The notes under the pieces: generated by a model | Database searches by the model: none | Seen by the model: the letters and a program-made list of their open reading frames with translations, nothing else | What the model was told of the DNA's origin: nothing | Position numbers and translations under genes: made by a program | DNA from: Sneathiella sp. HT1-7 | GTDB lineage: Bacteria > Pseudomonadota > Alphaproteobacteria > Sneathiellales > Sneathiellaceae | Assembly (NCBI RefSeq): GCF_020731145.1 | Contig: NZ_JAJFZN010000003.1 | Coordinates: 124,001-188,000, forward strand | DNA length: 64,000 nucleotides | Direction of reading: 5' to 3' | Part shown: positions 29,124-53,949 of the stretch, piece by piece | How the letters are laid out: every line of letters begins with the position of its first letter | Position numbering within the stretch: the first letter of the stretch is position 1

Positions 29124-29137
29124 CGTTTGATCCTTTG

Positions 29138-29173
29138 GCATCCCCCTTGGCGCTGAGTGCGTCAAGGGAATGC
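29138..29173 (+). terminator. Stem-loop 1 between tctC and tctA (attenuator or mRNA stabiliser)
   Basis: The arms 29138-29153 and 29159-29173 (GCAT...GGCGC against GCGTC...ATGC) pair over about 14 positions with one mismatch and one bulge around the loop TGAGT. No T run follows, so it is more likely a 3' stabilising or partial-termination element than a full terminator. A second hairpin follows within 20 bases. Confidence 0.6.
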
Positions 29174-29190
29174 TTGGGCTTGCCTTTTGA

Positions 29191-29207
29191 CCCTGCCGGG
29201 AGCAGGG
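29191..29207 (+). terminator. Stem-loop 2 between tctC and tctA
   Basis: CCCTGC (29191-29196) pairs exactly with GCAGGG (29202-29207) around CGGGA. It lies 24 bases before the tctA start. Together with the larger hairpin upstream it separates the binding-protein message from the channel genes. Confidence 0.5.
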
Positions 29208-29230
29208 CATTGGATCAGGAAAGTTAATTT

Positions 29231-31263: not shown

Positions 31264-31269
31264 ATCTTT

Positions 31270-34573: not shown

Positions 34574-34579
34574 TTGGTC

Positions 34580-35254: not shown

Positions 35255-35258
35255 AGTG

Positions 35259-36317: not shown

Positions 36318-36376
36318 CAACCAAACTCGTTTCGTAACCACGAAACACAACGGATAAGACTGAAAGGAATATTTTG

Positions 36377-37525: not shown

Positions 37526-37529
37526 ATCG

Positions 37530-39642: not shown

Positions 39643-39773
39643 ATTGAGAAAAATTAGGGTTCTATGGTAGATGAAATGCGAGCCCGATAGGCATTCATTT
39701 TTAATGTTAGCGCGTATTTCAAAATCATAAAGATTAGCCTTGACAATTTTCCTAAGGCTCTCCAAATTTATAA

Positions 39774-39787
39774 CTTAGCTATCTAAG
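39774..39787. promoter_or_regulatory. Degenerate copy of the TTAGATATCTAA box
   Basis: CTTAGCTATCTAAG keeps the TTAG-N4-CTAA frame of the boxes at 42126, 42149, 45508 and 50744, with centre CTAT instead of ATAT. It is 101 bases before the hydrolase start. It is probably a weaker site of the same regulator. Confidence 0.55.
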
Positions 39788-39887
39788 AATAAATTGTTAA
39801 GAATGCATCCGCGATTGCGGTTCAGCCAGAAAATAGCGCAAGATAATATGCGTATAAGTCGGGCAGGGAACAGGGGAAAAGAATACA

Positions 39888-41168
39888 ATGAGATTACTTT
39901 CGAAAACCTACTGGCATGGTACGCAAATCCGCTTTCGGGATCCTGTGGAGGATGTGACGGGGATCAGCGTCGCCCTGAATGCCGCGGATGGTGCACGGCT
40001 CCGGGGCGTCTATTGGACTCCTGATAAAAGCCCGCGTCCAAAAGTGGCTGTCATTGCAGCCCATCCAAGAGGTGACTTTTCGGAACATCATGCCTTTCCC
40101 GCATTCCTGAAGGCCGGATATGCCTGCATGGGCGCCAATATGCGGAACGTCAATAATGATTCAGACTGCCAGCATGAAAAGCTTGTCGTCGATATTGCTG
40201 CCTATATGCAATGGCTTAAGGAAAATGGCGTAGAAAAAATTGTCCTGCTTGGCAATTCAGGTGGAGGCTCTCTCTTTTCCTTTTACCAGTCACAGGCGGC
40301 AGCAGCGCCGGAAGAGAGGATTAAAGTTACTCCGGGCGGACGTCCGACAGGCCTTGAAAAGATGGAGCTAATTCCGGGGGATGCTATCATATATATGGCG
40401 GCCCATACGGGGCAGGGCCTGATTATCAATGAAGTGATTGACCCGTCTGTCGTTGACGAGCATCAGCCGCTCAAAACAAACCCTGAATTTGACATGTATG
40501 ACCCGGAGAATGGGTTTAAACCAGCGCCCGAATGGGTAAAGTATTCTCCAGAATTTATTAAAAAATTCAGGAAAGCTCAGCTTGATAGAGTTCAAAGGCT
40601 TGATGCGGTGGCACATGATTGGATTAACCTTTCCAATGATGCCGCGAGAATTCATGGCAGTGAAGGCTTCGAGGATCTCCCGACCGATGTGCAGCGCCGC
40701 GTGATGGAGCGGGAAGCCTTTGAGCCGGTAATGGTAATCTACCGGACCATGGCCAACTTGCATTATGCGGATAACACTCTTGATCCGTCACCGCGCCCTT
40801 ATGGCTCCTTGATCAGCCCGCGCCCGGACTTGATGAATTTTCAGCGATTTGGTTTTGCTCGTGTCATGACACCACATGGATGGCTGTCGACGTGGTCGGG
40901 GCTATCCTCAAACGCGAGTATTCCGAAGACCGGCCCCTCAATCACGGAGCCTGCCGTTGTGATACAAGCCGGCAAGGATCTGGATGTGTTCCCGGAAACC
41001 CACTCGAAGCTGACATTTAACACTATTCAGTCTGCGGATAAGGAATACTGGGACATCCCCGAAGCGCTGCATTATTTTGAGCCCGATGAAGGTGATGACG
41101 GCAACGAAACTCTGGATAGGGTGATGAACCGCCTAGTTGCTTGGGTTCAAGAGCGCTTTCCAATTTAG
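39888..41168 (+). CDS. Alpha/beta hydrolase family protein
   Basis: The 426-residue protein has the hydrolase pattern: oxyanion region VIAAHPRGDFSEHH (near residue 51), nucleophile elbow GNSGGG (Ser near residue 121) and a late histidine in ALHYFEPDEG (near residue 402). A large insertion between elbow and acid, rich in Pro and charged residues (DMYDPENGFKPAPEWVKYSP), makes it longer than simple esterases. It could hydrolyse an ester or a C-C bond in the aromatic/CoA pathway encoded downstream. The SDR gene begins 16 bases later. A degraded MarR-type box lies upstream. Confidence 0.82.
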   Translation: MRLLSKTYWHGTQIRFRDPVEDVTGISVALNAADGARLRGVYWTPDKSPRPKVAVIAAHPRGDFSEHHAFPAFLKAGYACMGANMRNVNNDSDCQHEKLVVDIAAYMQWLKENGVEKIVLLGNSGGGSLFSFYQSQAAAAPEERIKVTPGGRPTGLEKMELIPGDAIIYMAAHTGQGLIINEVIDPSVVDEHQPLKTNPEFDMYDPENGFKPAPEWVKYSPEFIKKFRKAQLDRVQRLDAVAHDWINLSNDAARIHGSEGFEDLPTDVQRRVMEREAFEPVMVIYRTMANLHYADNTLDPSPRPYGSLISPRPDLMNFQRFGFARVMTPHGWLSTWSGLSSNASIPKTGPSITEPAVVIQAGKDLDVFPETHSKLTFNTIQSADKEYWDIPEALHYFEPDEGDDGNETLDRVMNRLVAWVQERFPI

Positions 41169-41184
41169 GAACGGGAGTATCTCA

Positions 41185-41970
41185 ATGGGCCGGTTAGCGG
41201 GAAAAACAGCTATTATCACAGGCGCAGGGCGTGGAATTGGTTTCTCCACCGCAGCTCTCTTCGCGAATGAAGGCGCAAATGTCGTCATTTGTGACATCCA
41301 GGAAGAGAGCTGCGAGTGCGCTTGTAAAGAAATTACGGAAGAGGGCGGTAGCGCCCTTTCGCAACCAATGGATGTCATCAACGAAGGGGACTGGAAATCC
41401 GTATTCGCGAAATCTATCGAAGCATTCGGGCAAGTGGATGTGGTGATGAACTGCGCGGGAATCGGCGATCAATCTCCTATTGAGGATACCTCCGTCGATG
41501 TTTTCGACAAGCTTTGCGATGTCAATTTGAAAGGTGTTTTTCTTGGCTGCAAACATGCAATTTTGCATATGAAAACCCGGCCTGCGGACATGCCGTCCGC
41601 CTCGATAATCAATGTCTCGTCAACCGCGGGCTTCGTTGGTACGGCGCGGTCGGGTATCTACACAATGACCAAAGGGGGCGTTCGCCTGTTTTCGAAATCG
41701 GTAGCCGTGGAGGTGTCGGCGTTTGGATATAATATCCGGTGCAACTCCTTGCATCCGGGCGGAACGGAAACGCCGATGTTTGATAATTCGCTTGAACAAA
41801 GAAATGTCTCTAAGGAAGCATTCAGTGAAATCGTGAAGCGACGAAATCTTCTGGGACGGCGTGCAAAACCGATTGAAATTGCCTATGGCGCACTTTTCCT
41901 CGCAAGCGATGAATCATCTTTTATGACCGGCACCGAACTGGCGCTGGATGGGGGATATGCGGCGCGCTAA
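41185..41970 (+). CDS. Short-chain dehydrogenase/reductase (classical SDR)
   Basis: The ATG at 41185 follows GGGAG and puts TGAGRGIG at residues 11-18; an in-frame start at 41137 would overlap the hydrolase. The 261-residue protein has NCAGIGD, catalytic Ser in INVSSTAGF, and YTMTK. VVICDIQEES after the second strand fits NAD. It oxidises a secondary alcohol or reduces a ketone, and is paired with the hydrolase. HPGGTETPMF and GTELALDGGYAAR are typical SDR C-terminal features. Confidence 0.92.
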   Translation: MGRLAGKTAIITGAGRGIGFSTAALFANEGANVVICDIQEESCECACKEITEEGGSALSQPMDVINEGDWKSVFAKSIEAFGQVDVVMNCAGIGDQSPIEDTSVDVFDKLCDVNLKGVFLGCKHAILHMKTRPADMPSASIINVSSTAGFVGTARSGIYTMTKGGVRLFSKSVAVEVSAFGYNIRCNSLHPGGTETPMFDNSLEQRNVSKEAFSEIVKRRNLLGRRAKPIEIAYGALFLASDESSFMTGTELALDGGYAAR

Positions 41971-42125
41971 TGGGCGTGAAAATGCATATCTTCAAACCGG
42001 GTTTGACCTTCGGCGGATACATTATCCGGCAAGCACTCATGTTTTCCCTCCCAGGGGCTTGGGTATGGATTTCGGTATAAATATTCTGCTGAGGGTCATT
42101 CATTCTTTGATTATAGTCTATAAAA

Positions 42126-42137
42126 TTAGATATCTAA
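42126..42137. promoter_or_regulatory. MarR-type operator, copy 1 (TTAGATATCTAA)
   Basis: A perfect 12-base palindrome placed just upstream of the -35 hexamer TTGACG (42139-42144). It is 23 bases, about two helical turns, from the second copy at 42149, so two dimers could bind on the same face. Confidence 0.7.
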
Positions 42138-42138
42138 C

Positions 42139-42167
42139 TTGACGATCATTAGATATCTAATTAAATT
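42139..42167 (+). promoter_or_regulatory. Promoter of the enoyl-CoA hydratase operon
   Basis: TTGACG (42139-42144), a spacer of 17 bases and TAAATT (42162-42167). The spacer contains the second operator copy, so a bound repressor would exclude RNA polymerase. Confidence 0.6.
42148..42161. promoter_or_regulatory. MarR-type operator, copy 2 (ATTAGATATCTAAT)
   Basis: A perfect 14-base palindrome filling most of the promoter spacer. The same 14 bases recur at 45507 and 50743. Confidence 0.75.
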
Positions 42168-42220
42168 TTCCGTCATATAATATAAAGTTGTAAACGCGGT
42201 AACGGGGAGAATTTTTCAAT

Positions 42221-42994
42221 ATGGTTTATCAGCCAGTGCTTCTGGATAAGAAAGACGGCGTCGCCCTTGTCACATTGAACCGGCCGGACGCAGGAAATGC
42301 GAGCGATGCGGAAATGGCGCATGAATTAATCGCGCTCTGGCCGAAATTGAGTGAGGATGAAGACGTTCGTGCCGTTGTTCTGACGGGCGCGGGGACACGT
42401 CATTTCTGTACCGGTGCGGATATGAAGCTTGCATCCGACAAGGGCGATACGGGGTTTGATGCCTGGGGCGATATTCCAGAGGATTTTTATAAGCCAGTAA
42501 TTTGCGCCGTTAATGGCGTCGTTGCCGGCGGCGGCTGGCATTTTATGTGGCAGGCTGACTTTGCGATTGCAGCGGAAAATGCCACTTTTTTGGAACCGCA
42601 TGTGAGCGTCGGGTGGGTTCCGCTTCGGGAAATGCTGGGGATGGCGCTTCGCGTTCCGCAGGGTCCGATCCGCCGGATGGCCTATATGGGGACTGCCGAG
42701 CGTATGGATGCAAAGCGTGCTTATGAACTCGGGGTTGTGACTGAGGTTGTCCCGATTGAGGAACTGGTCGATCGGGCAATGGAGATTGCGACGGTCATCG
42801 CCAATCAGGCGCCGCTCGCGGTGCAGGCAACAAAGGAAACATTTCAGCGTGCGTTCGACCTGCGCTATGCATGGCGCCCGCTGTATGATCATATGCACGA
42901 AAAGCGGATCCAGGTTGACTGGGAGAGTGAAGATGGCAAGGAGGGACCGCGCGCCTTTGCCGAAAAACGTGCGCCAGTCTGGAAGGGTCGTTAG
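42221..42994 (+). CDS. Enoyl-CoA hydratase/isomerase family protein
   Basis: The 257-residue protein has the crotonase fold: VALVTLNRPDAGNAS at the start, oxyanion-hole region GTRHFCTGADMKLA (near residue 60), VVAGGGWHFMWQADFAIAAE (near residue 98), and FLEPHVSVGWVPL, where acid/base residues usually lie. Crotonases hydrate, isomerise or cleave acyl-CoA thioesters. It is the first gene of a three-gene operon with a CoA-transferase and an acyl-CoA dehydrogenase. Two MarR-type boxes precede it. The CoA-transferase start follows its stop by 2 bases. Confidence 0.92.
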   Translation: MVYQPVLLDKKDGVALVTLNRPDAGNASDAEMAHELIALWPKLSEDEDVRAVVLTGAGTRHFCTGADMKLASDKGDTGFDAWGDIPEDFYKPVICAVNGVVAGGGWHFMWQADFAIAAENATFLEPHVSVGWVPLREMLGMALRVPQGPIRRMAYMGTAERMDAKRAYELGVVTEVVPIEELVDRAMEIATVIANQAPLAVQATKETFQRAFDLRYAWRPLYDHMHEKRIQVDWESEDGKEGPRAFAEKRAPVWKGR

Positions 42995-42996
42995 GG

Positions 42997-44247
42997 ATGG
43001 CGCAGGAGCAATCCATGCCTGAGAATGCGAGTTTGCTCTCAAATTTGCGGGTCCTGGATATTTCCAGCTACATTGCGGCACCCGCCGCGGCAACGATACT
43101 TGGTGACTTCGGGGCCGATGTGATAAAAATTGAACCCGTGGGAGCGGGTGATGCCTATCGTGTATTTCAGAATTCACCGGGAAATCCGACAAGTGACGTT
43201 GCCTATGGCTGGCAAATGGATAACCGTAACAAACGGAGCCTTGCGCTCGATCTTGCGGGTGATGCCGGTCGCACGACCTTTAGAAGGATGGCAGCTCTTG
43301 CAGATGTCATTATCGTCAACTTGCCGCTTAAAAGCCGTTCAAAATTATCGCTCACATATGAGGACTTAAAGAGCCTTAACCCGAGAATGATTTATGCGTC
43401 CCTGACGGCCTATGGCGAAAAGGGACCAGAGGCCGACCGATCCGGATTTGATCATACTGCCTTGTGGGCCCGCACAGGCATGATGGACACGGTAAGGCCC
43501 GCCCCGGATGCGCCGCCGTCTCGTGCGGCTCTTGGCATGGGCGATCACGCTTCCGGCATGACGTTATTCGGGGCCATTATGATGGCGCTGTATCGGCGGG
43601 AAATAACAGGGGAAGGGACATCGGTGCAAACCAACCTAATGGCTAATGGTCTCTGGTGTAATGCCATACAGGTACAGGCTATGCTCTGTGGGGCAGAATA
43701 TGCCTATCGCCCGGCCCGTGAGAACGCGGATAATGCTCTGCATAATCTATACAAGACGTCGGACGATCGATGGTTTCATCTTATCGTCATCCCGGAGGAA
43801 AAGCGTTGGCCAGCTCTCTTGCAGATAATTGAGCGAGAGGATCTGTTGACGGATACAAGGTTCGATACCACGGCGAAACGGCACGCAAACGCTTCTGATC
43901 TGGTTAAAATTCTGGATGCGATCTTCCTTGGCCGAACCATGGAGTTCTGGCAGACAAAGCTCGATGCAGCAGGCATTCCTATAGGCGTGGTGCAGAGGCT
44001 GCGCGATATCCCGGAAGATCGGCAGATGAACGAAAGTGAAGCCCTTATGCCTTTTCACGGTTTAGACGGGCAGGTCGATCGCACCGTCAACAGCCCGCTT
44101 TGGATAGATGGAATGCCTAAAAGACCAGCGTACAGGGCTCCGGAAATTGGGGAACATAGCGAAGAAATACTAGCAGAATTCGGGTTCTCAGGTGAAGAGA
44201 TCAACGGTTTGCTGCGGGAGAGGGCGGTTAAATCGCTGGAAAAATAA
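42997..44247 (+). CDS. Class III CoA-transferase (CaiB/BaiF family)
   Basis: The 416-residue protein starts with LRVLDISSYIAAPAAATILG and GADVIKIEPVGAGDAYR, typical CaiB/BaiF N-terminal blocks. The catalytic aspartate is near residue 183 in LGMGDHASGM. NRNKRSLALDL and ADVIIVNLPL are further family marks. It transfers CoA between carboxylates, activating a carboxylic acid without ATP. An internal ATG at 43015 is also possible. It links the hydratase and acyl-CoA dehydrogenase and could activate the acid taken up by the TRAP system. Confidence 0.93.
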   Translation: MAQEQSMPENASLLSNLRVLDISSYIAAPAAATILGDFGADVIKIEPVGAGDAYRVFQNSPGNPTSDVAYGWQMDNRNKRSLALDLAGDAGRTTFRRMAALADVIIVNLPLKSRSKLSLTYEDLKSLNPRMIYASLTAYGEKGPEADRSGFDHTALWARTGMMDTVRPAPDAPPSRAALGMGDHASGMTLFGAIMMALYRREITGEGTSVQTNLMANGLWCNAIQVQAMLCGAEYAYRPARENADNALHNLYKTSDDRWFHLIVIPEEKRWPALLQIIEREDLLTDTRFDTTAKRHANASDLVKILDAIFLGRTMEFWQTKLDAAGIPIGVVQRLRDIPEDRQMNESEALMPFHGLDGQVDRTVNSPLWIDGMPKRPAYRAPEIGEHSEEILAEFGFSGEEINGLLRERAVKSLEK

Positions 44248-44300
44248 TAAGACAGCACCGGATAGACTGTTGGGTTCTTTGATGAGGGAGTAGGGCAACC

Positions 44301-45467
44301 ATGGATTTGGGATGGACAGAGGAGCAGGTGGCAATACAGGATGCCATCGATAGAAAATGCCGCAATTATGGCGATAACTACTGGCTGGAGAGAGATAAAG
44401 ACGGCCGGTTCCCGGAAGAGTTTGTGCGCGATATCGCCGAAGATGGCTGGCTCGGCATTGCGATGCCCGAAGAATTTGGTGGCGCAGGCCTCGGCCTGAC
44501 TGAAGCCTGCATTATGATGCAGACCATCACGCAGTCGGGCGCCGGATATACTGGCGGTGGTGGTGTGCATATCAATATTTTCGGTCCGAGCCCGATTGTC
44601 GCCTATGGAACCACCGAGCAAAAGCAACGTATGTTACCGCCGCTCATTCGCGGAGAAGATAGGTGCTGCTTTGGCGTAACAGAGCCTAATGCCGGTCTCG
44701 ATACCTCATCAATTGAAACACGCGCGGATTGGGATGGTGAAAAATACATTATCAACGGCCGCAAGATGTGGACATCCACTGCCCAGACCGCCAATAAAAT
44801 TCTTTTACTCGCCCGGACGACGCCGCGTGATGAAGCAGACAAACCAACCGGCGGGATGTCGCTTTTCTATACAGATCTCGACAGAAACTATGTCGATGTT
44901 CAGCGTATTGAAAAGATGGGACGCAAAGCTGTTGATTCCAACGCCGTCTTTATCGATGGGTTGCCAGTCTCTAAGGATGATTTGATCGGAGAGGAAGGAA
45001 AGGGGTTCAAGTATATCCTTCACGGAATGAACGCAGAACGTATTCTTATCGGGGCGGAAACTGTCGGTTTTGGTCGAGCAGGACTACGAAAAGCGGTGGA
45101 ATATGCGAAGGAGCGGGTTGTCTTCGGTCGGCCAATTGGCATGAACCAGGGAATTCAGCATCCATTGGCGGATGCATGGGCACAACTTGAGGCGGCAAAT
45201 CTAATGTGCTTTCAGGCAGCAAAGCTTTATGACGCCGGAAAGCCTTGTGGTGCGGAGGCAAACGCGGCCAAATATCTTGCGGCAGAGGCGGGCTTCACGG
45301 CCTGTGAAAGGGCTGTTCTGACACATGGTGGAATGGGGTATGCAAAGGAGTTCCATGTTGAACGATATTTTCGTGAAATATTCCTTGCGCGCATCGCACC
45401 CGTCAGCCGAGAAATGATCCTAAATTATATAGGAGAGCATGTTCTGGGCTTGCCAAAGTCCTACTGA
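44301..45467 (+). CDS. Acyl-CoA dehydrogenase family protein
   Basis: The 388-residue flavoprotein has the ACAD blocks: FGVTEPNAGLDTSSIETRAD (near residue 120), DKYIINGRKMWTSTAQTANK-like substrate loop, FGRPIGMNQGIQHPLADAWA and HGGMGYAKEFHVERYFRE. The usual YEGT motif that carries the catalytic glutamate in medium-chain enzymes is missing; the same position reads ARIAPVSREM. A glutamate elsewhere may act instead, as in isovaleryl-CoA type enzymes, or the reaction may not be a classical dehydrogenation. It is last in the enoyl-CoA hydratase operon. Confidence 0.92.
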   Translation: MDLGWTEEQVAIQDAIDRKCRNYGDNYWLERDKDGRFPEEFVRDIAEDGWLGIAMPEEFGGAGLGLTEACIMMQTITQSGAGYTGGGGVHINIFGPSPIVAYGTTEQKQRMLPPLIRGEDRCCFGVTEPNAGLDTSSIETRADWDGEKYIINGRKMWTSTAQTANKILLLARTTPRDEADKPTGGMSLFYTDLDRNYVDVQRIEKMGRKAVDSNAVFIDGLPVSKDDLIGEEGKGFKYILHGMNAERILIGAETVGFGRAGLRKAVEYAKERVVFGRPIGMNQGIQHPLADAWAQLEAANLMCFQAAKLYDAGKPCGAEANAAKYLAAEAGFTACERAVLTHGGMGYAKEFHVERYFREIFLARIAPVSREMILNYIGEHVLGLPKSY

Positions 45468-45497
45468 ATGCCTTGAATATGCTCAATTAGTGTTTTC

Positions 45498-45525
45498 TTG
45501 ACAATAATTAGATATCTAATAATAT
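45498..45525 (+). promoter_or_regulatory. Promoter of the TRAP operon
   Basis: TTGACA (45498-45503), a spacer of 16 bases and TAATAT (45520-45525). The operator copy at 45507 lies fully within this promoter. The dctP-type ATG follows at 45642 with AGGGAGAAAG upstream. Confidence 0.65.
45507..45520. promoter_or_regulatory. MarR-type operator, copy 3 (ATTAGATATCTAAT)
   Basis: A perfect 14-base palindrome, identical to those at 42148 and 50743, filling the spacer of the TTGACA/TAATAT promoter. Confidence 0.75.
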
Positions 45526-45641
45526 TTTTGGGTAAAAAGCTGAACGCAATGAAACAGGTGAAAAATAACGATAAAAGTTGAGGGTGTTTTTCTTGGGATC
45601 AGCCGTCGACTTTTCAGCATAATTAGCAGGGAGAAAGTGTT

Positions 45642-46712
45642 ATGAAATTAATGAAAAAATGCTCGGCCGCCATGGCGGCTCTAGCGATATCAGGAACGTT
45701 TGCGCTCGCATCGACGGCCGCGGCGGAAACAACTCTGCGCTGGTCCGATGGTCAGCCAAATCGTGGCGTGAATTCTGAAACATTGCAGTGGATGGCAAAC
45801 GAACTGGAAAAACGAAGTGACGGCGATCTCGGCGTAGAATTCCATTGGGGCGGGGCATTGTTTAAGTCGAAATCTGCCGTCAAGGGCGTAGGTACTCGAT
45901 CCGCAGACATTGCAACGATTATTGCGGCATATACACCAAAAGAACTCGTCGCCTACAGTGTCGGGGATATTCCGCTTCCAAACTCTGACGTCTGGGTCGG
46001 CATGCGCGCCATGTATGAATTGGCTACCACACACCCGGCTCTTAAAAAGATGTTTGACGATCTGAACCTGGTGTATCTCACCAATCTCTCGACCAGTGCG
46101 ATTGAAGTCCTGTGTAAAGACAAGTTCATCAATACACTGGATGATCTAAAGGGTGTAAAAATGCGGGCTGTCGGCCCCTATGGTCGTATATTCAAGGACC
46201 TTGGTGCCGATGTCGCGCGATTGAGCCAGGCGAAAGTCTATAACGCGCTGGACTCTGGAATTGTTGAGTGTAATCAGAACTATATGTACTCAATCGAAGT
46301 CTATAAGCAGAATGACGTAGCAAAGAAGCTGACGAAGCTTGATTGGGGGCAACATCTTGGCTTCGGCGTCGTGATGAACAAGGAGACATACGGGGGATTG
46401 TCCGATGAAAACCGTCAGGTTTTGCAGGAAGTATCCTCTGACTTCATTGATCAGTTTGCGCGTCGCATACAGGAAGCAAATATCAAGGCACTTGAAAGAA
46501 TGACGAGCGGGGATAGCCCACTGGAAGTTGTCGAAATGGATCCGAATGAAAAGGCCAAGCTGGAGAAAATGGGATTTGATACAGTCCCGAACTGGATTGA
46601 GCGGGCAAATGATGCAGGACTTCCCGGTCAGGACATTTTCGATAGCTACATGGCACTTGTCGCGAAATATGAAAAAATTCGTGATGAAAAAGGTTATCCG
46701 TGGAACAACTAG
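45642..46712 (+). CDS. TRAP transporter substrate-binding protein (DctP type)
   Basis: The 356-residue precursor has a signal peptide (MKLMKKCSAAMAALAISGTF, cleavage near AAA-ETT) and the DctP fold: LRWSDGQPNRGVNSETLQWM, ELEKRSDGDLGVEFHWGGAL, LDDLKGVKMRAVGPYGRIFK and NALDSGIVECNQ. The periplasmic protein feeds carboxylated ligands to the DctQM pair encoded next. Its place in the MarR-type regulon with a Rieske oxygenase of the phthalate group suggests an aromatic or cyclic carboxylate. Overlaps dctQ by 13 bases. Confidence 0.92.
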   Translation: MKLMKKCSAAMAALAISGTFALASTAAAETTLRWSDGQPNRGVNSETLQWMANELEKRSDGDLGVEFHWGGALFKSKSAVKGVGTRSADIATIIAAYTPKELVAYSVGDIPLPNSDVWVGMRAMYELATTHPALKKMFDDLNLVYLTNLSTSAIEVLCKDKFINTLDDLKGVKMRAVGPYGRIFKDLGADVARLSQAKVYNALDSGIVECNQNYMYSIEVYKQNDVAKKLTKLDWGQHLGFGVVMNKETYGGLSDENRQVLQEVSSDFIDQFARRIQEANIKALERMTSGDSPLEVVEMDPNEKAKLEKMGFDTVPNWIERANDAGLPGQDIFDSYMALVAKYEKIRDEKGYPWNN

Positions 46713-47257
46713 ATCTCCCGAATGAGCGATCGCAGGTCCATAGAGGTGTGGACCCTGCGTTCCTCGTCTGGCTTGAAAATGCCGGCGTGGTCGTCTCATC
46801 CATTGCAATCGTTATTCTCGCGGGTGTTATCACCATATCTGTCGTGGGCCGAACGTTTTTTGGCTCAATGATACCGGATGACCTTGTTATTTCCGGAGAA
46901 CTGATGGTGACGCTTGTTGCTCTCCCATGGGCCTATATTACAGCGGAGCGTGGCCATATCGCCGTGGAGCTTTTTACGAACTGGACGTCGGAGCGGGCGA
47001 GAATAAGGCTGGATATCTTGGCGGCTGTTGTTGGTCTGGCCATGATTGGCCCGCTTACTTGGGCAACCGGTATTGCGCTTTGGCAGGCGATTGATTATGG
47101 CAGCTATTTTGATGGCGAGTTTTATTTGCCGGAATGGCCCGGCCGGTCGATGTTTTTTCTCGGATTTTTAATGGTGTTGATCAGGCTTCTCCTTATTCTG
47201 GTGACGGATATTACGCGCTTGATTTATCACGGTAAGACAGAAAAAGGGCGCAGGTAA
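46700..47257 (+). CDS. TRAP transporter small permease (DctQ type)
   Basis: The 185-residue protein starts with GTG at 46700, with AAAAAGG upstream, and overlaps dctP by 13 bases. It has four membrane segments; VVGRTFFGSMIPDDLVISGE and PWAYITAERGHIAVELF are typical DctQ blocks. It associates with DctM in the inner membrane. Its stop overlaps the dctM start by one base. Confidence 0.9.
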   Translation: MEQLDLPNERSQVHRGVDPAFLVWLENAGVVVSSIAIVILAGVITISVVGRTFFGSMIPDDLVISGELMVTLVALPWAYITAERGHIAVELFTNWTSERARIRLDILAAVVGLAMIGPLTWATGIALWQAIDYGSYFDGEFYLPEWPGRSMFFLGFLMVLIRLLLILVTDITRLIYHGKTEKGRR

Positions 47258-48600
47258 TGGATCCGTTTTTACTCGGTATTTGCGGTTTTGCGATTGTTGT
47301 TATTCTGCTTGCACTTCGGGTCCCGATTGCTTTCTGTCTGGGTTCTATTGCGGTCGCCTGTACATTTTTGTTCTATGCTTGGCCTCATGGTGGGGAATTC
47401 AACGGCCCGGCAGGGTGGCGCTCGGCAACGACTATCCTGACATCAAATAGCTATGATTTTGTTCATTCTTTTGAACTCACGATGGTTCCCTTGTTTATCC
47501 TGCTAAGTCAGGTGGCCTATCATGCTGGTATAACGACGGAAATATATAATTCCGCACGAGTGTGGCTTGCGCGCGTGCCAGGTGGTCTGGCAATTGCCTC
47601 CATCCTTGGCTGTGGCGGATTCTCGGCTATTACCGGGTCTAGTGTTGCCTGTGCGGCGGCAATGGGCAGGATCTGTACGCCAGAGATGCTCAAGGCAGGA
47701 TATGGCCAACGGCTCGCAACGTCTTCTGTTGCTGTAGGCGGGACATTGGGATCACTTATTCCGCCAAGTGTGCCCTTTATCCTTTATGGAATTTTTACAG
47801 AAACCTCGATCAGCAAGCTTTTCCTTGCGGGTATTCTGCCCGGCATTATTTCACTTGTCGGCTATATTATTGTGGTTTTTATCTGGGTTAAGATTAACCC
47901 TAAAGAAGCACCGGCATTTACTGAAGAAAAACGGCCTGGGGATCGTCGCCGTGCCGCGCTGCGGGCTTGGCCTGCTGTTCTGCTGTTCTTGATTATCGTT
48001 GTTGGAATTTATGGCGGACTTTTTACCACAACGGAAGCCGCCGGTATAAGTGCTGTGACCGCAGTTGTACTTGGCGTTGTATTGCGGCGTTTGAGCCTCG
48101 CCAGCTTCATTTTGTCACTGCGCGAGACAGCCTATCAAACGGCTATGATCTTCATGATCGTCTTCGGCGCGAAGATTTTCGTCTCCTTCATCTCGCTCAC
48201 CGGAGTGTCGCCTTGGTTGATCGCGGAGGTTCAGGCCGCGAATGTCTCCGACTGGATCGTTATTGCGATACTGTGCCTGATGTTTCTTGTACTGGGCATG
48301 TTCCTGGATCCGATTGGCATCTTGCTTCTGACCCTTCCGGTTTCAATCCCATTGATTGAGAATATGGGGCTGGATCTGATCTGGTTTGGCGTCATTGTTG
48401 TGAAATTGCTGGAAATTGGGCTGATAACGCCGCCTGTCGGTTTAAACGCCTTTATAATCAAGGCGGTCGGTGGAAAGGATATTCAGATACATTCCATATT
48501 TGCCGGCATTTCGCGGTTTCTGATTGCGGAGGTAGTGATCCTTGTCCTTTTGCTGCTATTCCCGATTTTATCGCTGATAATACCAAATACTATGTATTGA
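47257..48600 (+). CDS. TRAP transporter large permease (DctM type)
   Basis: The 447-residue protein has about twelve membrane segments with DctM features: FELTMVPLFILLSQVAYHAG (near residue 70), GSSVACAAAMGRICTPEMLK (near residue 128), GTLGSLIPPSVPFILYGIFT and MFLDPIGILLLTLPVSIPL. It drives sodium-coupled uptake. Its start overlaps the small permease stop. The downstream 200 bases before the MarR gene contain no clear terminator. Confidence 0.95.
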   Translation: MDPFLLGICGFAIVVILLALRVPIAFCLGSIAVACTFLFYAWPHGGEFNGPAGWRSATTILTSNSYDFVHSFELTMVPLFILLSQVAYHAGITTEIYNSARVWLARVPGGLAIASILGCGGFSAITGSSVACAAAMGRICTPEMLKAGYGQRLATSSVAVGGTLGSLIPPSVPFILYGIFTETSISKLFLAGILPGIISLVGYIIVVFIWVKINPKEAPAFTEEKRPGDRRRAALRAWPAVLLFLIIVVGIYGGLFTTTEAAGISAVTAVVLGVVLRRLSLASFILSLRETAYQTAMIFMIVFGAKIFVSFISLTGVSPWLIAEVQAANVSDWIVIAILCLMFLVLGMFLDPIGILLLTLPVSIPLIENMGLDLIWFGVIVVKLLEIGLITPPVGLNAFIIKAVGGKDIQIHSIFAGISRFLIAEVVILVLLLLFPILSLIIPNTMY

Positions 48601-48800
48601 AGGTTGCGAAACCATCCGCATATTGACATATCACCTTGATGTCGGAAATAGATCAGAAAGAGGCGTAAATATTTGCTACTCACCTGTTTCGGTTCTATAC
48701 ACAGCTTTAGCCGGTCATGTAGAGTTTTAATGTTTAACATTGCGGGCGATAAAGTATCACTCGGCCACAGAATATGTAATATCGCAACTTTAAGGCAATT

Positions 48801-49361
48801 ATGGTCAGACAAAAAAAATTAACAGTTGAAGCGGATGCTACAACTCAGGCTATTCTTGAACATTGGGATCATATCAAGCCCGATGACAGGGTCGCCCATC
48901 TTGTCAGGGATGTCGCTCGGGGGTTTACGCGGTCGTTACAAACCCGTCTGGGAGATCATGGAGTGTCTTTTGGGCATTGGATATTCCTTCGCGCGATGTG
49001 GCATAAAGATGGGGTGACACAACGCGATCTTGCGGTTCAGGTCGGCTTGACGGAGCCAACAACCCACACGGCAATCACCAAAATGGTAGAGCTGGGATAT
49101 GTCAGCCGCCGTCGTAAGGAAGGCAATCTGAAAAAGCAATATATCTTTCTGACAAAGGAGGGGAGGGCTCTCGAAAATAAGCTTGTACCGCTCGCTCAGG
49201 AAGTGAATAAGATTGCGCTTGCCGGGATTGATGATGAAACACAAATGATTGTCCGTAACAGCTTGCTGACTATGATCTATAACCTTGCTGTCGATGAAGC
49301 GCATGCGCTTGCCGATGGGAAGAAAATCCCTTCGACAAGAAGCCTTGGCATAAGAAGCTGA
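48801..49361 (+). CDS. MarR family transcriptional regulator
   Basis: The 186-residue protein has the MarR winged helix: RAMWHKDGVTQRDLAVQVGL, then TEPTTHTAITKMVELGYVSR and RRRKEGNLKKQYIFLTKEGR, the wing. It lies between the TRAP operon and the Rieske gene, in the middle of the set of promoters that carry TTAGATATCTAA, and is the only MarR in the window. MarR dimers bind such short AT-rich palindromes and release them on binding phenolic or CoA-linked ligands, so it is the natural owner of the box. No copy is seen in front of its own gene, so it may be constitutive. It converges with the Rieske gene, 16 bases apart. Confidence 0.92.
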   Translation: MVRQKKLTVEADATTQAILEHWDHIKPDDRVAHLVRDVARGFTRSLQTRLGDHGVSFGHWIFLRAMWHKDGVTQRDLAVQVGLTEPTTHTAITKMVELGYVSRRRKEGNLKKQYIFLTKEGRALENKLVPLAQEVNKIALAGIDDETQMIVRNSLLTMIYNLAVDEAHALADGKKIPSTRSLGIRS

Positions 49362-49377
49362 ATTTGTCCTTGTTCGA

Positions 49378-50682
49378 TTAAGACGCCGCTTTTCCCATGT
49401 TACTCAGGAACATTTGTTCAGTCTCCTCGGTCCCGAGAGTGAGCCAATCGGTGCCTTTCGGAATAATTCCCTGATAGGATGAAATTTCAACCTGAGGGAT
49501 ATGCGGGTCTGAAATTCCGATCGGGCCGGCCTTTCCATCTCGGAAATTTTTGACGGCGTCGACCATCAGGCGACGGAACTCGACTACCGCAAAGTCGCTT
49601 GCTCCTAGAGTGTCCCGGCTACGATTGACAGTTTTTCCCATACTCACCCACATGGCAATATCCTGATTGGGTATGCCGGGGAGGCCGGTGAAGCTCCCGT
49701 TGTTCATAAGTTCCCGATCCTGCAAAAAATCATTCTCAAGGGTTCGGGTGCTGTTGTAGTCGCTGTCTATATCCTCCCCCATGACGAGCCGATTGAACTG
49801 CCGCCATTGTTCCGTGCCGACTGTCGCTTCGCCGCCCCAGGATAGAAAGTAAAACCAGCTGCTTTCATCGTCGGCTGGCACAACGATACTGGCGACGTTA
49901 TAGGATGAGTTCGGCGGGATCAGGGAGATAAATGGCGCAACATATACCGTGACCCGTGCATAGTCGTGTGTTCGCGCATCCTTGATCGGCCTTCTGAGCG
50001 CGACATAGCGAAACCCATAGGGTGTGGTTTGAGTGATCATTCTGGGAGCCTTGTCCGTCGACGGGCGTGTCCAGTTCTTTTCTGTTGCGCCAGCGGAGTC
50101 AACTCGGGCCGGCACCATGTCTGTGGAGTGAAGAGTAGAGGAGTGCGCGGAATCAATCTGCCCTTCCTGAATCTGGGCCCAATTGCAGGGCACCTTGACT
50201 TTAGCGATGGAGATCGGAGTTTGATCATCCGGGGCGAATGGGGGGCGCTCAAATGCAGGTATCTTTTCTGGCGGCCCCATGTAGGCCCAAACGAATCCTC
50301 CCGTTTCCTCCGTTGGGTAGGATTTGATCTTCACCTTCCTTTTCATTGGGCTATCCGCTGGCTCGGACGGCATTTCGATGACATTGCCCGCGACATCAAA
50401 TTTCCAACCGTGATAAAGACAACGAAGGCCGCATTGTTCATTCCGGCCATAAACAAGAGATGGACCTCTATGCGGGCAGAATTCATCCAAAAGACCAATC
50501 TTTCCGTCACTATCGCGGAACGCAACCAGGTCTTCGCCCATAAGCCGGACACGAACCGGCTTGCCGTCGGCAATAAGCTCTTCTGACATTAGGGCAGGGA
50601 TCCAATGGCGCCGCATCATCTGGCCCATCGGAGCGTCGCCCTCTACACGGCATAAGAGATCATTCTCTTCTGATGTCAGCAT
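49378..50682 (-). CDS. Rieske non-heme iron oxygenase alpha subunit (phthalate dioxygenase-like)
   Basis: The 434-residue protein has the Rieske 2Fe-2S ligands Cys69/His71 (FCPHRG) and Cys88/His91 (RCLYHGW). The mononuclear iron site shows Asp177, His180 and His185 in DSAHSSTLH (DxxHxxxxH). Size and motif spacing fit the single-component alpha-only phthalate 4,5-dioxygenase / vanillate demethylase group. Its electron donor is the reductase gene starting 106 bases away on the other strand. The shared gap has a MarR-type box. The expected reaction is ring dihydroxylation (or demethylation) of an aromatic acid in the cytosol. The substrate is inferred only from the neighbours. Confidence 0.93.
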   Translation of the reverse strand: MLTSEENDLLCRVEGDAPMGQMMRRHWIPALMSEELIADGKPVRVRLMGEDLVAFRDSDGKIGLLDEFCPHRGPSLVYGRNEQCGLRCLYHGWKFDVAGNVIEMPSEPADSPMKRKVKIKSYPTEETGGFVWAYMGPPEKIPAFERPPFAPDDQTPISIAKVKVPCNWAQIQEGQIDSAHSSTLHSTDMVPARVDSAGATEKNWTRPSTDKAPRMITQTTPYGFRYVALRRPIKDARTHDYARVTVYVAPFISLIPPNSSYNVASIVVPADDESSWFYFLSWGGEATVGTEQWRQFNRLVMGEDIDSDYNSTRTLENDFLQDRELMNNGSFTGLPGIPNQDIAMWVSMGKTVNRSRDTLGASDFAVVEFRRLMVDAVKNFRDGKAGPIGISDPHIPQVEISSYQGIIPKGTDWLTLGTEETEQMFLSNMGKAAS

Positions 50683-50729
50683 AACGGTCTCCAGCTTTTC
50701 TCTATCTTTCGCAAGAGTGTTTCTAGTTC

Positions 50730-50758
50730 TTGCAAATTTATAATTAGATATCTAATAT
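50730..50758 (+). promoter_or_regulatory. Promoter of the reductase operon
   Basis: TTGCAA (50730-50735), a spacer of 17 bases, and TAATAT (50753-50758). The operator copy at 50743 covers the end of the spacer and the first part of the -10. The transcript would begin about 23 bases before the ATG at 50788. Confidence 0.55.
50743..50756. promoter_or_regulatory. MarR-type operator, copy 4 (ATTAGATATCTAAT)
   Basis: A perfect 14-base palindrome in the 105-base gap between the divergent Rieske and reductase genes, so one site can control both. Confidence 0.75.
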
Positions 50759-50787: not shown

Positions 50788-51741
50788 ATGATGCAAACTG
50801 ATTTTTTAGATGTCGTGATTACTGAGAAGAAGGTTATCGCGAATGATTACTGCGTATTGAAACTCTGCTCGGTGCTGGGTGGGGACCTGCCTGAGTTCAG
50901 TGCTGGCGCGCATATTTCCGTAAAAACACCACAGGGAGGGATGCGTCATTATTCTCTCGCGAATAGTCCGTCGGAAAGGGACTACTATCTTTTGGCGGTC
51001 AAGGCGGAAAATGAAGGGAGAGGAGCCTCCCTTAGCCTCGTCAAGGATGCAAATGTCGGCGACATTCTTGAGATACAGCCGCCTGAGAATAATTTTGAAC
51101 TGATCCCGGCAAGTGAATACCTTTTTATCGCCGGCGGAATTGGTATTACGCCCATACTGGCGATGTGCCGAAAGCTGTTGTCCGATGGGCATTCAAACTT
51201 TCGTCTGATCTATTGCACGCAGTCGCTTGAAAGTACAGTTTTTGCCGATCAGTTGGCAGAGGCGGAACTTGCCCCTCACGTCATCCTTCACCATGACGAA
51301 GGGAATATTGCGAACAACTATGATTTCTGGCCGCATTTTGAAACACCCACCCATGCACATGTTTATTGTTGTGGTCCGAAGCCGATGATGGAAGCGATCC
51401 AGGATTTTTCCGGTCATTGGCCCGAAAGCCAAATTCATTTTGAAGATTTTAACCCGGTAGAAGTTATTCAGCAGGACGATGTATCTTTCACTGTTTATTT
51501 GAAGAAATCCAATATCTGGATCACCATCCCGCAGCATCAGACAATCCTCGAAACGTTGCGTAATCACGGCTATGACCTGAGGTCATCTTGCGAAAGTGGA
51601 ACGTGCGGATCCTGCAAGACCGGTTTGCTTGCCGGTGACGTCGAGCATCGGGATCTGGTACTCACCGATGATGAGAGAGAAGATTTCATCATGATCTGTG
51701 TTTCGCGGGCGAAGGGGGGAGAGATCACCCTTGACCTTTAA
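50788..51741 (+). CDS. Phthalate dioxygenase reductase-type FMN/2Fe-2S oxidoreductase
   Basis: The 317-residue protein follows the PDR/VanB order: flavin domain with RHYSLANSPSERDYYLLAVK (near residue 52), NAD domain with YLFIAGGIGITPILAM (near residue 112), and a C-terminal plant-type ferredoxin with Cys268, Cys273, Cys276 (CESGTCGSC) and a fourth Cys near 305 (MICVSRA). It passes electrons from NADH to the Rieske oxygenase encoded divergently. It overlaps the next gene by 11 bases if that gene uses its TTG start. Confidence 0.94.
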   Translation: MMQTDFLDVVITEKKVIANDYCVLKLCSVLGGDLPEFSAGAHISVKTPQGGMRHYSLANSPSERDYYLLAVKAENEGRGASLSLVKDANVGDILEIQPPENNFELIPASEYLFIAGGIGITPILAMCRKLLSDGHSNFRLIYCTQSLESTVFADQLAEAELAPHVILHHDEGNIANNYDFWPHFETPTHAHVYCCGPKPMMEAIQDFSGHWPESQIHFEDFNPVEVIQQDDVSFTVYLKKSNIWITIPQHQTILETLRNHGYDLRSSCESGTCGSCKTGLLAGDVEHRDLVLTDDEREDFIMICVSRAKGGEITLDL

Positions 51742-52942
51742 TAAGGCGGATAAATGCATCGATGCGATTGGGGTAGGCGTTGTTGGATTGGGGCGCGCTT
51801 TCATGCTCACGCGACCGGATTTTGAGGGCGATGCGCGCTTTAATCTTGTCGCGGCCTGTGACACAAGAGCTGAAGCACGGGATAGTTTTTCTACTCGATA
51901 CTCTGCGGCAGCCTACTCTGACGTAGAGAAACTTGCTGCCGATCCGTCCGTAGAGGCTGTTTACATTGCTAGTCCGCATCAACTTCACGAGGCGCATGCC
52001 ATCACGGCACTGACGGCCGATAAGCATGTTCTGATTGAAAAGCCGATTGCCATTAAACTTTCCGCTAGCCGCGCAATCATTGAGGCCGCAGCTGTCAGTA
52101 AAGGCAGTGTAATTGTTGGTCCTAGCCATAGTTTTGACCCACAAATCGAAGCCTGCCTGGATATAGTTAAGTCCGAGGAGTTTGGGCGTCTTAGGATGAT
52201 ACGAACGAGCTATTACACAGATTTCATGTATCGACCGCGCCGACCAGAAGAAATGCGGACCGAGGACGGCGGTGGAGTTGTTTTCAGTCAGGCCGTCCAT
52301 CAGGTTGATATCGTCCGTCTGCTTGCCGGGGGGCTGACGAAACAGGTATTTTCCCATACCGGTGATTGGGATGAAAAAAGGCCGACCGAAGGGGCCTATA
52401 CGGCACTTCTGAAATTTGAAAACGGTATTTCTGCCAACCTTCATTATTCTGGTTACGCCCATTACGATACTGACGCGGCATTTAGCTGGATGTCGGAACT
52501 AGGGATGAAGAAAGATCCTGCGCAGTATGGCGCAGCAAGAAAGCTGCTTAGGACGGTGAACGGCAAGTCTGAGGGAGACCTCAAAAATCAGCGCATGTTT
52601 GGTTCGGCTGTAAACTTTCAAGACGTATCTGGAAACGAGCACTTCGGAGAATTGACCCTGACGTTTGATCATGCGGATATCCGGGTTACGCCACAAATGC
52701 TTGAAATATATGGAGAGGATCATATTAGGAGTGAGCCAGTCCTGCCTGTCATTGGGAGGCGGAGCAATGTCCTGAGCGCACTTTGGGGTTTGGTCAGGGA
52801 AAACAAGGCGCCGGTTCAGGATGGGCGATGGGGCCATGCCACGCTTGAAGTTTGTCACGGTATTTTGAGTTCCGGGAGATCCGGCGAGGTTCAGATCATG
52901 CGGGAGCAGGTGCCCGTTCCGGGCTATCCGGCAACGACATAA
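51731..52942 (+). CDS. Gfo/Idh/MocA dehydrogenase, phthalate cis-diol dehydrogenase-like
   Basis: No ATG fits the frame. The TTG at 51731 is chosen because AGGGGGGAGAG lies 7-17 bases upstream and it gives MTFNKADKCIDAIGVGVVGL; a GTG at 51698 is possible. The 403-residue protein has the NAD motif GVVGLGRAF (near residue 15), EKPIAIKL with the family lysine, and GGGVVFSQAVHQVDIVRLLA with the catalytic region. It resembles the 4,5-dihydro-4,5-dihydroxyphthalate dehydrogenases, which rearomatise the diol made by the Rieske enzyme. Position between reductase and the decarboxylase-like gene supports this. The TTG may lower its translation. Confidence 0.87.
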   Translation: MTFNKADKCIDAIGVGVVGLGRAFMLTRPDFEGDARFNLVAACDTRAEARDSFSTRYSAAAYSDVEKLAADPSVEAVYIASPHQLHEAHAITALTADKHVLIEKPIAIKLSASRAIIEAAAVSKGSVIVGPSHSFDPQIEACLDIVKSEEFGRLRMIRTSYYTDFMYRPRRPEEMRTEDGGGVVFSQAVHQVDIVRLLAGGLTKQVFSHTGDWDEKRPTEGAYTALLKFENGISANLHYSGYAHYDTDAAFSWMSELGMKKDPAQYGAARKLLRTVNGKSEGDLKNQRMFGSAVNFQDVSGNEHFGELTLTFDHADIRVTPQMLEIYGEDHIRSEPVLPVIGRRSNVLSALWGLVRENKAPVQDGRWGHATLEVCHGILSSGRSGEVQIMREQVPVPGYPATT

Positions 52943-52956
52943 CAGGGAACAGATAG

Positions 52957-53949
52957 ATGAGTAAATTAAAGCTTTCAATTGCCATTGGAGACTATGATCG
53001 AAACCGTGCCTTGATTGATGGGCGGGTGCAGATTGACGGGGTCGATCCTATTTTTATGGCACTTACGCCTGAAGAAATGTTCTTTCGCGCCTTTCGGCAT
53101 CAGGACTTTGATATTTCGGAAGTTTCTTTTGCAAGTCAGGTTGTCAGCATTGCGCAAGATCGTTCAAAATATCAGGCGCTGCCGATATTTTTGTCGCGAG
53201 CCTTTCGCCATAGCGCCATCTATATCCGGACAGATAAAGGTATCGAAAGCCCGGTACAGTTAAAGGGTAAAAAAATCGGAATTGCGGAATATCAGCTTAG
53301 TGCGAACGTCTGGGCTCGCGCCATTCTGGAAGACGAATATGGCGTCAAGCCGTCCGATATACATTGGGTGCGGGGGGGTATGAATTCGCCCGGGCGACCC
53401 GAAAAAATAGCCATTCAATTGCCCGAAGATGTCAAAATGACAACTGCGCCCGAGGATAAATCCCTGAATGACCTTCTTATCTCCGGCGAGATAGATGGGT
53501 TTATCGGACCGCGCAGCCCGAATTGCTTTGATGAGCAAAATTCGAATGTCGGCAGACTTTTCGGCAATACAGTAGAAGTCGCAAGTGTCTACTGGAAGAA
53601 AACCGGCATCTTTCCGATTATGCACCTTCTTGGAGTGCGCCGAGAACTTCTGGAGGCGCACCCGTTTCTTGCTGGTGCCCTTATGAAAGCCTTCAGTGCG
53701 TCAAAAGCGTCCGCTGAGGCACTGTTGGCAGATACCTCCGCTACCAAGGTAACAATGCCATTCGTCGAAGATCACCTGAATGAGGCGAAGAAGTTGATGG
53801 GGGAAAATTTCTGGTCGTATGGCATTAACGGCAATGAAGCGGCCTTAAACACATTTCTAGACCATCATCATCGACAGGGGTTGTCGTCGCGGCGGGTCAC
53901 AATCGATGAACTTTTTCCAAAGAATGTGGCGGAAAGCTATAGCTTGTGA
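52957..53949 (+). CDS. 4,5-dihydroxyphthalate decarboxylase-like protein
   Basis: The 330-residue protein lacks a signal peptide (MSKLKLSIAIGDYDRNRALI) but has a periplasmic-binding-protein-like fold: QIDGVDPIFMALTPEEMFFR, FDISEVSFASQ, LPIFLSRAFRHSAIYIR and LKGKKIGIAEYQLSANVWA. This is the known pattern of the Pht5 family of 4,5-dihydroxyphthalate decarboxylases, which convert the diol to protocatechuate. It follows the dehydrogenase by 14 bases. The set oxygenase, reductase, dehydrogenase, decarboxylase is a complete phthalate-to-protocatechuate kit, although close substrates cannot be excluded. No protocatechuate ring-cleavage gene is in the window. Confidence 0.88.
   Translation: MSKLKLSIAIGDYDRNRALIDGRVQIDGVDPIFMALTPEEMFFRAFRHQDFDISEVSFASQVVSIAQDRSKYQALPIFLSRAFRHSAIYIRTDKGIESPVQLKGKKIGIAEYQLSANVWARAILEDEYGVKPSDIHWVRGGMNSPGRPEKIAIQLPEDVKMTTAPEDKSLNDLLISGEIDGFIGPRSPNCFDEQNSNVGRLFGNTVEVASVYWKKTGIFPIMHLLGVRRELLEAHPFLAGALMKAFSASKASAEALLADTSATKVTMPFVEDHLNEAKKLMGENFWSYGINGNEAALNTFLDHHHRQGLSSRRVTIDELFPKNVAESYSL

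Follow-up and report, generated by a model that had tools for sequence, protein, structure and literature searches.

A palindrome conserved at phthalate loci as the putative operator of a MarR-family regulator

Introduction

Phthalate is a main breakdown product of plasticiser esters. A window of 64,000 nucleotides from Sneathiella sp. HT1-7 (contig NZ_JAJFZN010000003.1, positions 124,001 to 188,000) includes an 11-kb stretch in which a short palindrome, TTAGATATCTAA, recurs upstream of catabolic and transport genes, with the gene for a MarR-family regulator located among them. The question raised by this locus is whether the palindrome is the operator of that regulator and, if so, which substrate and which genes the pair serves. 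A preliminary description of the window had proposed a local MarR regulon in an "aromatic-acid" region. The regulon is supported by the confinement of the boxes, by their conservation and by the recurrence of MarR as the sole regulator at related loci. The region is borne out as well, but the label is too broad: the gene identities point to ortho-phthalate, and "aromatic-acid" can therefore be replaced by phthalate.

The argument starts from the positions, uniqueness and conservation of the boxes and from the gene identities, all read from sequence. Very likely, the MarR protein is a repressor of phthalate catabolism acting at this operator, and is lifted by phthalate or a pathway product. A broader proposition, towards which we lean with some caution, extends this to alpha-, beta- and gammaproteobacteria: a widespread MarR regulator would control ortho-phthalate catabolism there, with TTAGN4CTAA as the operator common to its loci. 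This operator would have been put before unrelated uptake systems: a DctP-type tripartite ATP-independent periplasmic (TRAP) transporter here, and TRAP-associated extracytoplasmic immunogenic (TAXI)-TRAP, tripartite tricarboxylate transporter (TTT), major facilitator superfamily (MFS), TauE-like and porin genes elsewhere. The box would thus predict importers and, for this genus, a fifth importer class and a new hydrolase/acyl-CoA branch.

Occurrence of the palindrome in the genome

Exact copies of TTAGATATCTAA are present at 42126, 42149, 45508 and 50744, as first described, compared to none in 100 dinucleotide shuffles of the window. Three are extended to one 14-mer, ATTAGATATCTAAT (42148, 45507 and 50743), which also agrees with that description. 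A search for scattered copies, proposed there as a check, covered 3,830,890 bases in 11 contigs (99.96% complete); beyond the four window copies, there is no exact copy in the whole 3.83-Mb genome, and the three places elsewhere with one mismatch are all on other contigs. The confinement of exact copies to the 11-kb stretch thus stands. Under random placement, the chance of four copies all falling within one 8.6-kb stretch is approximately 5e-8 by our own arithmetic, an underestimate if the 42126/42149 pair arose by local duplication.

A fifth site, TTAGCTATCTAA at 39775, has one mismatch to TTAGATATCTAA. The looser pattern TTAGN4CTAA occurs at 11 sites genome-wide, five of them within the 11-kb stretch, and the reversed pattern at 87. 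Six TTAGN4CTAA sites are therefore off-locus. Near one of these, TTAGAGAGCTAA at position 850419 of contig C4, no phthalate gene was seen among the open reading frames (ORFs) of its 3-kb stretch, which were inspected by eye only; its core four bases also occur in other loci.

Conservation of the box and the regulator at distant loci

A wider test used the best 80 of 592 relatives of the Rieske oxygenase, drawn from alpha-, beta- and gammaproteobacteria. A box was counted where TTAGN4CTAA occurs no more than 250 bp ahead of a Rieske or reductase gene, and 47 other palindrome arms of like make-up served as controls. The box is found in 70 of the 80 loci, compared to a maximum of five (median 0) for any control arm. 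In four further loci (L054, L082, L090 and L091, with L090 judged by eye), a box lies before a transporter gene heading the cluster or beside the cluster. The upstream boxes number 96, of which 31 read TTAGATATCTAA and 37 are perfectly palindromic. The base preceding TTAG is a C in 54%, followed further out by an A/T-rich stretch, and the site at 39775 shares this C. The median distance from box centre to gene start is 64 bp for Rieske genes and 96 bp for reductase genes.

The regulator recurs along with the box. ORFs from the 66 longer loci were grouped by reciprocal best match, with names assigned from sequence and place. The five most recurrent groups are the Rieske frame (45 loci), dehydrogenase (42), reductase (38), MarR (38) and decarboxylase (34), counts that are lower bounds because ORF picking misses genes in GC-rich DNA; MarR is the sole regulator in this set. 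A MarR relative is located nearby in 67 of the 80 loci at a threshold of at least 60 bits and in 52 at 130 bits or more, and some of the weaker relatives (33-43% identity) may not be orthologues. When 12 genomes, picked for a MarR gene or box that was missing, weak or cut, were re-searched whole, all contained a MarR relative except that of L027, a locus also lacking the box.

The reverse approach started from the regulator. Among 111 plasmid records with a MarR match, 11 were picked for variety and examined; all of them contain a Rieske gene and one or more boxes in the stretch, and seven (L110, L111, L113, L114, L115, L117 and L119) also have a Gfo/Idh gene and a decarboxylase-like gene. Of the 17 boxes in these plasmid loci, 16 have an annotated gene start no further than about 105 bp away.

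Promoter architecture and conservation of the sites

The sites and genes of the locus are listed in Table 1. Three exact copies had been placed inside promoter spacers. This is correct for 42149 and 45508, whereas the copy at 50744 overlaps its −10 by three bases (TTGCAA at 50730, box at 50744-50755, TAATAT at 50753-50758). The promoter scan found this last promoter, that of the reductase, too weak to list, and overall it yielded 13 promoters compared to 14.1 in shuffles, that is, no excess. Support for the putative box promoters is conservation, not the scan.

Table 1. Sites and genes of the putative phthalate regulon, in window coordinates.
Feature	Position	Strand	Basis or remark
−35-like TTGACA, hydrolase/SDR promoter	39740..39745	+	CTTGACAATT (from 39739) identical in window, G009 and G024
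Operator variant TTAGCTATCTAA ahead of hydrolase-SDR pair	39775..39786	.	Identical in 3/3 aligned genomes
Alpha/beta-hydrolase-like protein, 426 aa	39888..41168	+	Pfam Abhydrolase_1, below cut-off
Short-chain dehydrogenase (SDR)	41137..41970	+	Pfam
Operator, distal copy, immediately upstream of ech −35	42126..42137	.	Kept in G009 and G012; absent in Oceanibacterium
Operator, proximal copy, in spacer of ech promoter, TTGACG(42139-42144)-17-TAAATT(42162-42167)	42149..42160	.	Promoter scan and conservation
Enoyl-CoA hydratase/isomerase family (ech)	42221..42994	+	Pfam
CoA-transferase family III	42997..44247	+	Pfam
Acyl-CoA dehydrogenase	44301..45467	+	Pfam
Operator in TRAP promoter spacer, TTGACA(45498-45503)-16-TAATAT(45520-45525)	45508..45519	.	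Promoter scan and conservation
DctP-type TRAP solute-binding protein	45642..46712	+	Pfam DctP
DctQ small TRAP membrane subunit	46700..47257	+	Pfam
DctM large TRAP membrane subunit	47257..48600	+	Pfam
MarR-family regulator, 186 aa, proposed repressor	48801..49361	+	Pfam MarR_2/MarR
Rieske oxygenase, phthalate 4,5-dioxygenase-like	49378..50682	-	E 2.3e-167 to PDB 7fjl/7v25/7v28
Operator, divergent Rieske/reductase promoter region	50744..50755	.	Kept in G009, G024, G012 and G021
Phthalate-dioxygenase-reductase-like FNR (ferredoxin-NADP reductase)-[2Fe-2S] protein	50788..51741	+	Fer2, NAD_binding_1, FAD_binding_6
Gfo/Idh dihydrodiol dehydrogenase	51698..52942	+	E 4.8e-99 to PDB 7wzd "4,5-dihydroxyphthalate dehydrogenase"
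4,5-dihydroxyphthalate decarboxylase	52957..53949	+	E 1.6e-123 to PDB 9jp7

Comparison of orthologous loci finds the box kept in sister genomes as well as at the distant Rieske loci. At the TRAP promoter, CTTGAC, the box and a following TAA are kept in five genomes, with one box change in Oceanibacterium; at the ech promoter, where the distal box is 23 bp upstream of the proximal one, TTGAC and the proximal box are kept in four genomes, with one box change each in G012 and Oceanibacterium. In alignments of related genomes, the kept columns number 11/12 in the dctP box versus 28/184 elsewhere (five genomes), 12/12 in the hydrolase box versus 134/369 (three genomes), 12/24 in the ech box pair versus 34/234 (four genomes) and 5/12 in the Rieske box versus 21/114 (six genomes). 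In both the ech and the Rieske sets, the Oceanibacterium box differs in position or spelling.

The first site had been called a degraded copy, at 39774. A site with one mismatch is indeed present (at 39775), but it has not decayed: it is identical in the two sister genomes G009 and G024, as are its nearest flanks (TTTATAAC before, GAATAA after), and is thus a conserved variant. The same TTAGCTATCTAA precedes phthalate-cluster genes in L052, L053, L054, L091, L113 and L118. In the window, it begins 35 bp past the start of the conserved TTGACA, near the likely start point and outside the spacer.

Two rearrangements are visible at these sites. G024 lacks ech, the CoA transferase and the acyl-CoA dehydrogenase at this place (L093:10242-10273 versus window 42138-42169 and 45497-45528), and the junction is inside the repeated −35/operator sequence common to the ech and dctP promoters, as though recombination between two copies of the operator had removed the intervening operon. 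In G012 and G021, there is a second box near the Rieske start (window 50690-50730; alignment A3 columns 31-53), in a 23-column stretch absent from the window, G009 and G024. The single Rieske-promoter box of Oceanibacterium is at that Rieske-proximal place.

An alternative reading is that the boxes are a small repeat spread by recombination, or chance features of AT-rich promoter spacers, with no regulator involved. All sites do lie in AT-rich promoter DNA, and the two G024 copies seemingly served as deletion ends. We consider this extremely improbable, given that the box is more strongly conserved than the remaining promoter sequence and that no control arm approaches its frequency at distant loci. 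Chance palindromes as such are ruled out by the dinucleotide shuffles, the genome count and the control arms.

The MarR protein and its pairing with the box

The MarR protein scores 34.8 bits to MarR_2 (cut-off 27) and 28 bits to MarR (cut-off 24.6). An AlphaFold monomer model (predicted local distance difference test 90.1) has the predicted MarR fold, including the dimerisation helices at both ends. Its Foldseek and VIA-align rows are MarR-family proteins, and its neighbours include DNA-bound PecS, MftR, MepR and SlyA; compared to the SlyA-DNA structure 3q5f, the model aligns over 140 residues (Z 15.6, root-mean-square deviation 2.0), with 17-19% identity in structure comparisons. The site proposed for SlyA of Salmonella and E. 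coli in PMC5797941, TTAGCAAGCTAA, shares TTAG...CTAA half-sites with the window box. As described in that source, SlyA differs in being a broad regulator, which antagonises H-NS in E. coli. A likeness to HucR/PecS-type operators was considered and dropped, as the PecS site presented in PMC6391409 differs.

Across 42 sequences (the window protein and 41 relatives), invariant positions include R30, H33, R40, W60, R64, W67 and T87. Little variation is seen at the beginning of the recognition helix, where most sequences have EPTT. This would be in keeping with the constant half-sites, as a correlation rather than a contact map. A side-by-side listing of the core four bases and the recognition helix, made without a statistical test, gave no clear covariation pattern.

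The family Sneathiellaceae allows the pairing to be followed at closer range. In 25 genomes, with a MarR relative counted at E <= 1e-20, seven have the regulator and nine have an exact box. Six have both, and all 17 of their copies are at this locus (four each in G000 and G009, three each in G012 and G024, two in G021 and one in G001). Of the 18 family genomes lacking this MarR, 15 also lack an exact box, and none has the phthalate cluster.

Several observations nonetheless weigh against the reading of this MarR and the box as regulator and operator. No box is present in the fetched stretch of six of the 80 distant loci (L021, L027, L069, L074, L081 and L085). Five of these are in genomes with a MarR relative, beside the Rieske gene or elsewhere, so MarR is not always accompanied by a box; L027 has neither. 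Over the 80 loci, the co-occurrence of MarR and box is non-significant (Fisher p 0.052 at 60 bits and 0.31 at 130 bits), as it is in loci with full flanks (0.22 and 1.0), because both occur in nearly all loci and many contigs are truncated. The loci are also related to different degrees and not independent, with several from Caballeronia, Halomonas relatives and Paraburkholderia, and the core four bases of the box differ widely among them. In the family, G022 has kept MarR without an exact box; the genes from Rieske to decarboxylase have been deleted, and its contig stops at that place. Lone exact boxes occur in G005 (one), G013 (one) and G019 (two), genomes without this MarR. Some 140 bp past the G005 box (L127:5720) comes a TRAP-type gene set, whose DctM is 30% identical to that of the window. 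Finally, another MarR could bind the boxes, since 25 matches to PF12802 in the HT1-7 genome score over the cut-off.

Some further details belong to these genomes. In the 6-12 kb around the lone boxes of G005, G013 and G019, there is no match to phthalate enzymes; besides the G005 dctM, weak matches are an SDR in G013 (30%) and a CoA transferase in G019 (28%). In G022 (L096:781-790 versus window 49361 and 53788), marR is open, and the Rieske, reductase and dehydrogenase genes and most of the decarboxylase gene are gone directly behind it.

The gene at 48801 had been described as the only MarR gene. By PF12802, this is true of the window, but the genome has 31 matches at E <= 0.001. It may then be that the boxes are true operators of a different regulator, such as one of these proteins or the GntR protein at 56548, whose GntR/FCD gene is about 6 kb from the last box; the box-less loci in genomes that hold a MarR relative are compatible with this. 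Only the MarR of the 48801 type recurs with the box over distant loci, however, the family genomes lacking it are mostly without boxes and entirely without the cluster, and the half-sites fit its relative SlyA. A different binder is accordingly quite improbable, and we have little doubt that the 48801 protein is what binds the palindrome.

Proposed mode of regulation

In the mechanism we propose, a MarR dimer would bind TTAG-N4-CTAA, with TTAGATATCTAA as the best form, and block four promoter regions by sitting between or over the contact sites of RNA polymerase. The regulated units would be the hydrolase-SDR pair; ech, the CoA transferase and the acyl-CoA dehydrogenase; dctPQM, probably with marR through read-through; and, read divergently, the Rieske gene and the reductase, dehydrogenase and decarboxylase genes. 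Once inside the cell, phthalate or a pathway product would fill the MarR pocket, upon which MarR would be released from the DNA and the phthalate-to-protocatechuate pathway and the importer would be switched on. The ligand is likely phthalate or a close product.

An activator could also sit where the distal box lies (42126, immediately upstream of a −35), and MarR might therefore activate or act in both directions. The remaining sites are in blocking places: 42149, 45508 and 50744 each lie within the spacer or overlap the −10, whereas 39775 is near the likely start. DdvR and DesR, two members of the MarR family that regulate other aromatic pathways, are described as repressors. An activating or dual role is hence very unlikely, and the window protein very probably represses.

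The palindrome had been said to mark all promoters of the region. This is not so for marR, which has no box directly before it in the window; the same is true, within 300 bp, of 68 of the 71 loci with a MarR match, and three have such a box. The absence of a box had led to the suggestion that the repressor may not be autoregulated, which is doubtful. In the window, marR is 200 bp past dctM on the same strand (190-206 bp across the window genome, G009, G024 and G012), and the scan lists no terminator-like site in the gap, so marR may be read from the box-controlled TRAP promoter. Feedback by such read-through seems likely from this arrangement. In 29 of the 71 loci, marR is the next gene after the one for the dehydrogenase, in the same orientation.

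Identification of the pathway

The divergent Rieske/reductase pair and the genes that follow are identified, by their matches, as the ortho-phthalate 4,5-dioxygenase pathway. Among the structures matched by the Rieske protein, 7V25 is named phthalate dioxygenase in PMC10511449. Residues S182, R207, R244 and I256 of phthalate dioxygenase, discussed in PMC12445078 for phthalate binding and dioxygenation, correspond to S181, R206, R243 and I255 of the window protein. A related plasmid cluster is annotated pht3, ophA1, pht4 and pht5.

What the hydrolase, SDR and acyl-CoA genes do can only be guessed; the first two might be an ester hydrolase and an alcohol dehydrogenase. No PDB entry matches the 426-aa hydrolase-like protein at better than E 0.056. 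Its plasmid relatives are 34-39% identical among the 12 matches listed of 50 records, and closer relatives are present in the phthalate loci L012 (66%) and L071 (55%). These additional genes have the operator in common with the pathway and lie outside the 4,5-dioxygenase pathway as listed in PMC13040137. They could indicate a regulon for a phthalate-like acid, either substituted or the acid side of an ester, with the ech, CoA-transferase and acyl-CoA dehydrogenase products handling the side chain. Since the Rieske, dehydrogenase and decarboxylase proteins match phthalate enzymes and the Rieske substrate residues are kept, we regard this as rather unlikely and retain ortho-phthalate as the substrate.

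Transporters under the box

In the 80 distant loci, 18 boxes are outside the zone upstream of the Rieske and reductase genes, and 12 of these precede genes with Pfam transporter or porin domains: NMT1_3 (five), TctC (three), and MFS, TauE, Peripla_BP_6 and Porin_4 (one each). NMT1_3 is a TAXI-type domain, as plasmid annotation also indicates. The Peripla_BP_6 case (L087, TTAGAGTCCTAA) is weak. One further box is before dctP in Oceanibacterium, and one is before an MFS-like ORF that extends into a masked stretch. Four are left: one each before ech, an aldehyde dehydrogenase gene and an ORF without assignment, and one in an ambiguous place. By its genomic positions, one operator is apparently placed on unrelated transporters in different lineages, with the DctPQM TRAP system as the choice of this genus, and the box would therefore predict phthalate importers.

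The classes of phthalate import in section 14 of PMC13040137 are MFS, TTT, ATP-binding cassette (ABC) and TAXI-TRAP. The operator-linked, three-gene DctP/DctQ/DctM TRAP system is outside all four, and it is this dctPQM system that probably imports phthalate.

Relation to known systems

A MarR operator regulon for aromatic catabolism is of a known kind, and earlier work has named MarR genes in phthalate clusters. In the chlorobenzoate pathway, a related Rieske oxygenase is reportedly controlled by the MarR regulator CbaR, which has a single binding site covering the start point. DdvR of Sphingobium SYK-6, as presented in PMC6874591, is a MarR repressor of the Rieske gene ligXa and the uptake gene ddvT that is relieved by its substrate; it differs in that this substrate is a lignin dimer. 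Sphingobium yanoikuyae SHJ likewise has a MarR-family gene, phtR, beside 4,5-pathway phthalate genes (PMC6051330), and the window MarR shares 35% identity with its counterpart in a similar cluster carried by another S. yanoikuyae plasmid. Oph-R (Han 2008) appears in a primer-table row in PMC5031561 as a MarR-family gene by phthalate genes, the table listing 3,4-dioxygenase components. In the relevant parts of these two sources, phtR and Oph-R are named by annotation, with no operator sequence given. OphR of Rhodococcus DK17 also regulates a phthalate operon, but it is described as belonging to the IclR family rather than the MarR family.

In the open-licence literature, TTAGATATCTAA and four longer or variant strings gave only unrelated matches, and MarR together with phthalate gave annotation-level mentions only among the matches listed; a characterised phthalate MarR elsewhere is possible. 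Within the literature searched, what appears to be new is the operator with its depth of conservation, the extended regulon, the placing of the operator before unrelated transporters and the predicted DctP-TRAP phthalate importer. A putative operator-regulator pair conserved over three classes makes the box a tool that points to phthalate-use genes in each genome. In the window, it singles out a classic DctP-TRAP transporter along with an uncharacterised hydrolase and acyl-CoA module.

Neighbouring genes

An extra nadC gene (quinolinate phosphoribosyltransferase) is present in the phthalate clusters of plasmids L112, L114, L118 and L119; nadC is described in PMC6051330 as helping growth on phthalate in strain DBO1. 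In the window, the gene at 54080-56509 encodes a phosphoenolpyruvate (PEP)-hydrolase-like domain fused to sigma-54-activator and Fis-type DNA-binding domains, adjoined on the opposite strand by a second, weakly PEP-hydrolase-like gene. A separate cluster at 28122-39529, which has no TTAGATATCTAA boxes, encodes a TctC/TctA transporter, a DUF993 protein, two xylose-isomerase-like barrels, a Gfo/Idh protein and a TetR regulator.

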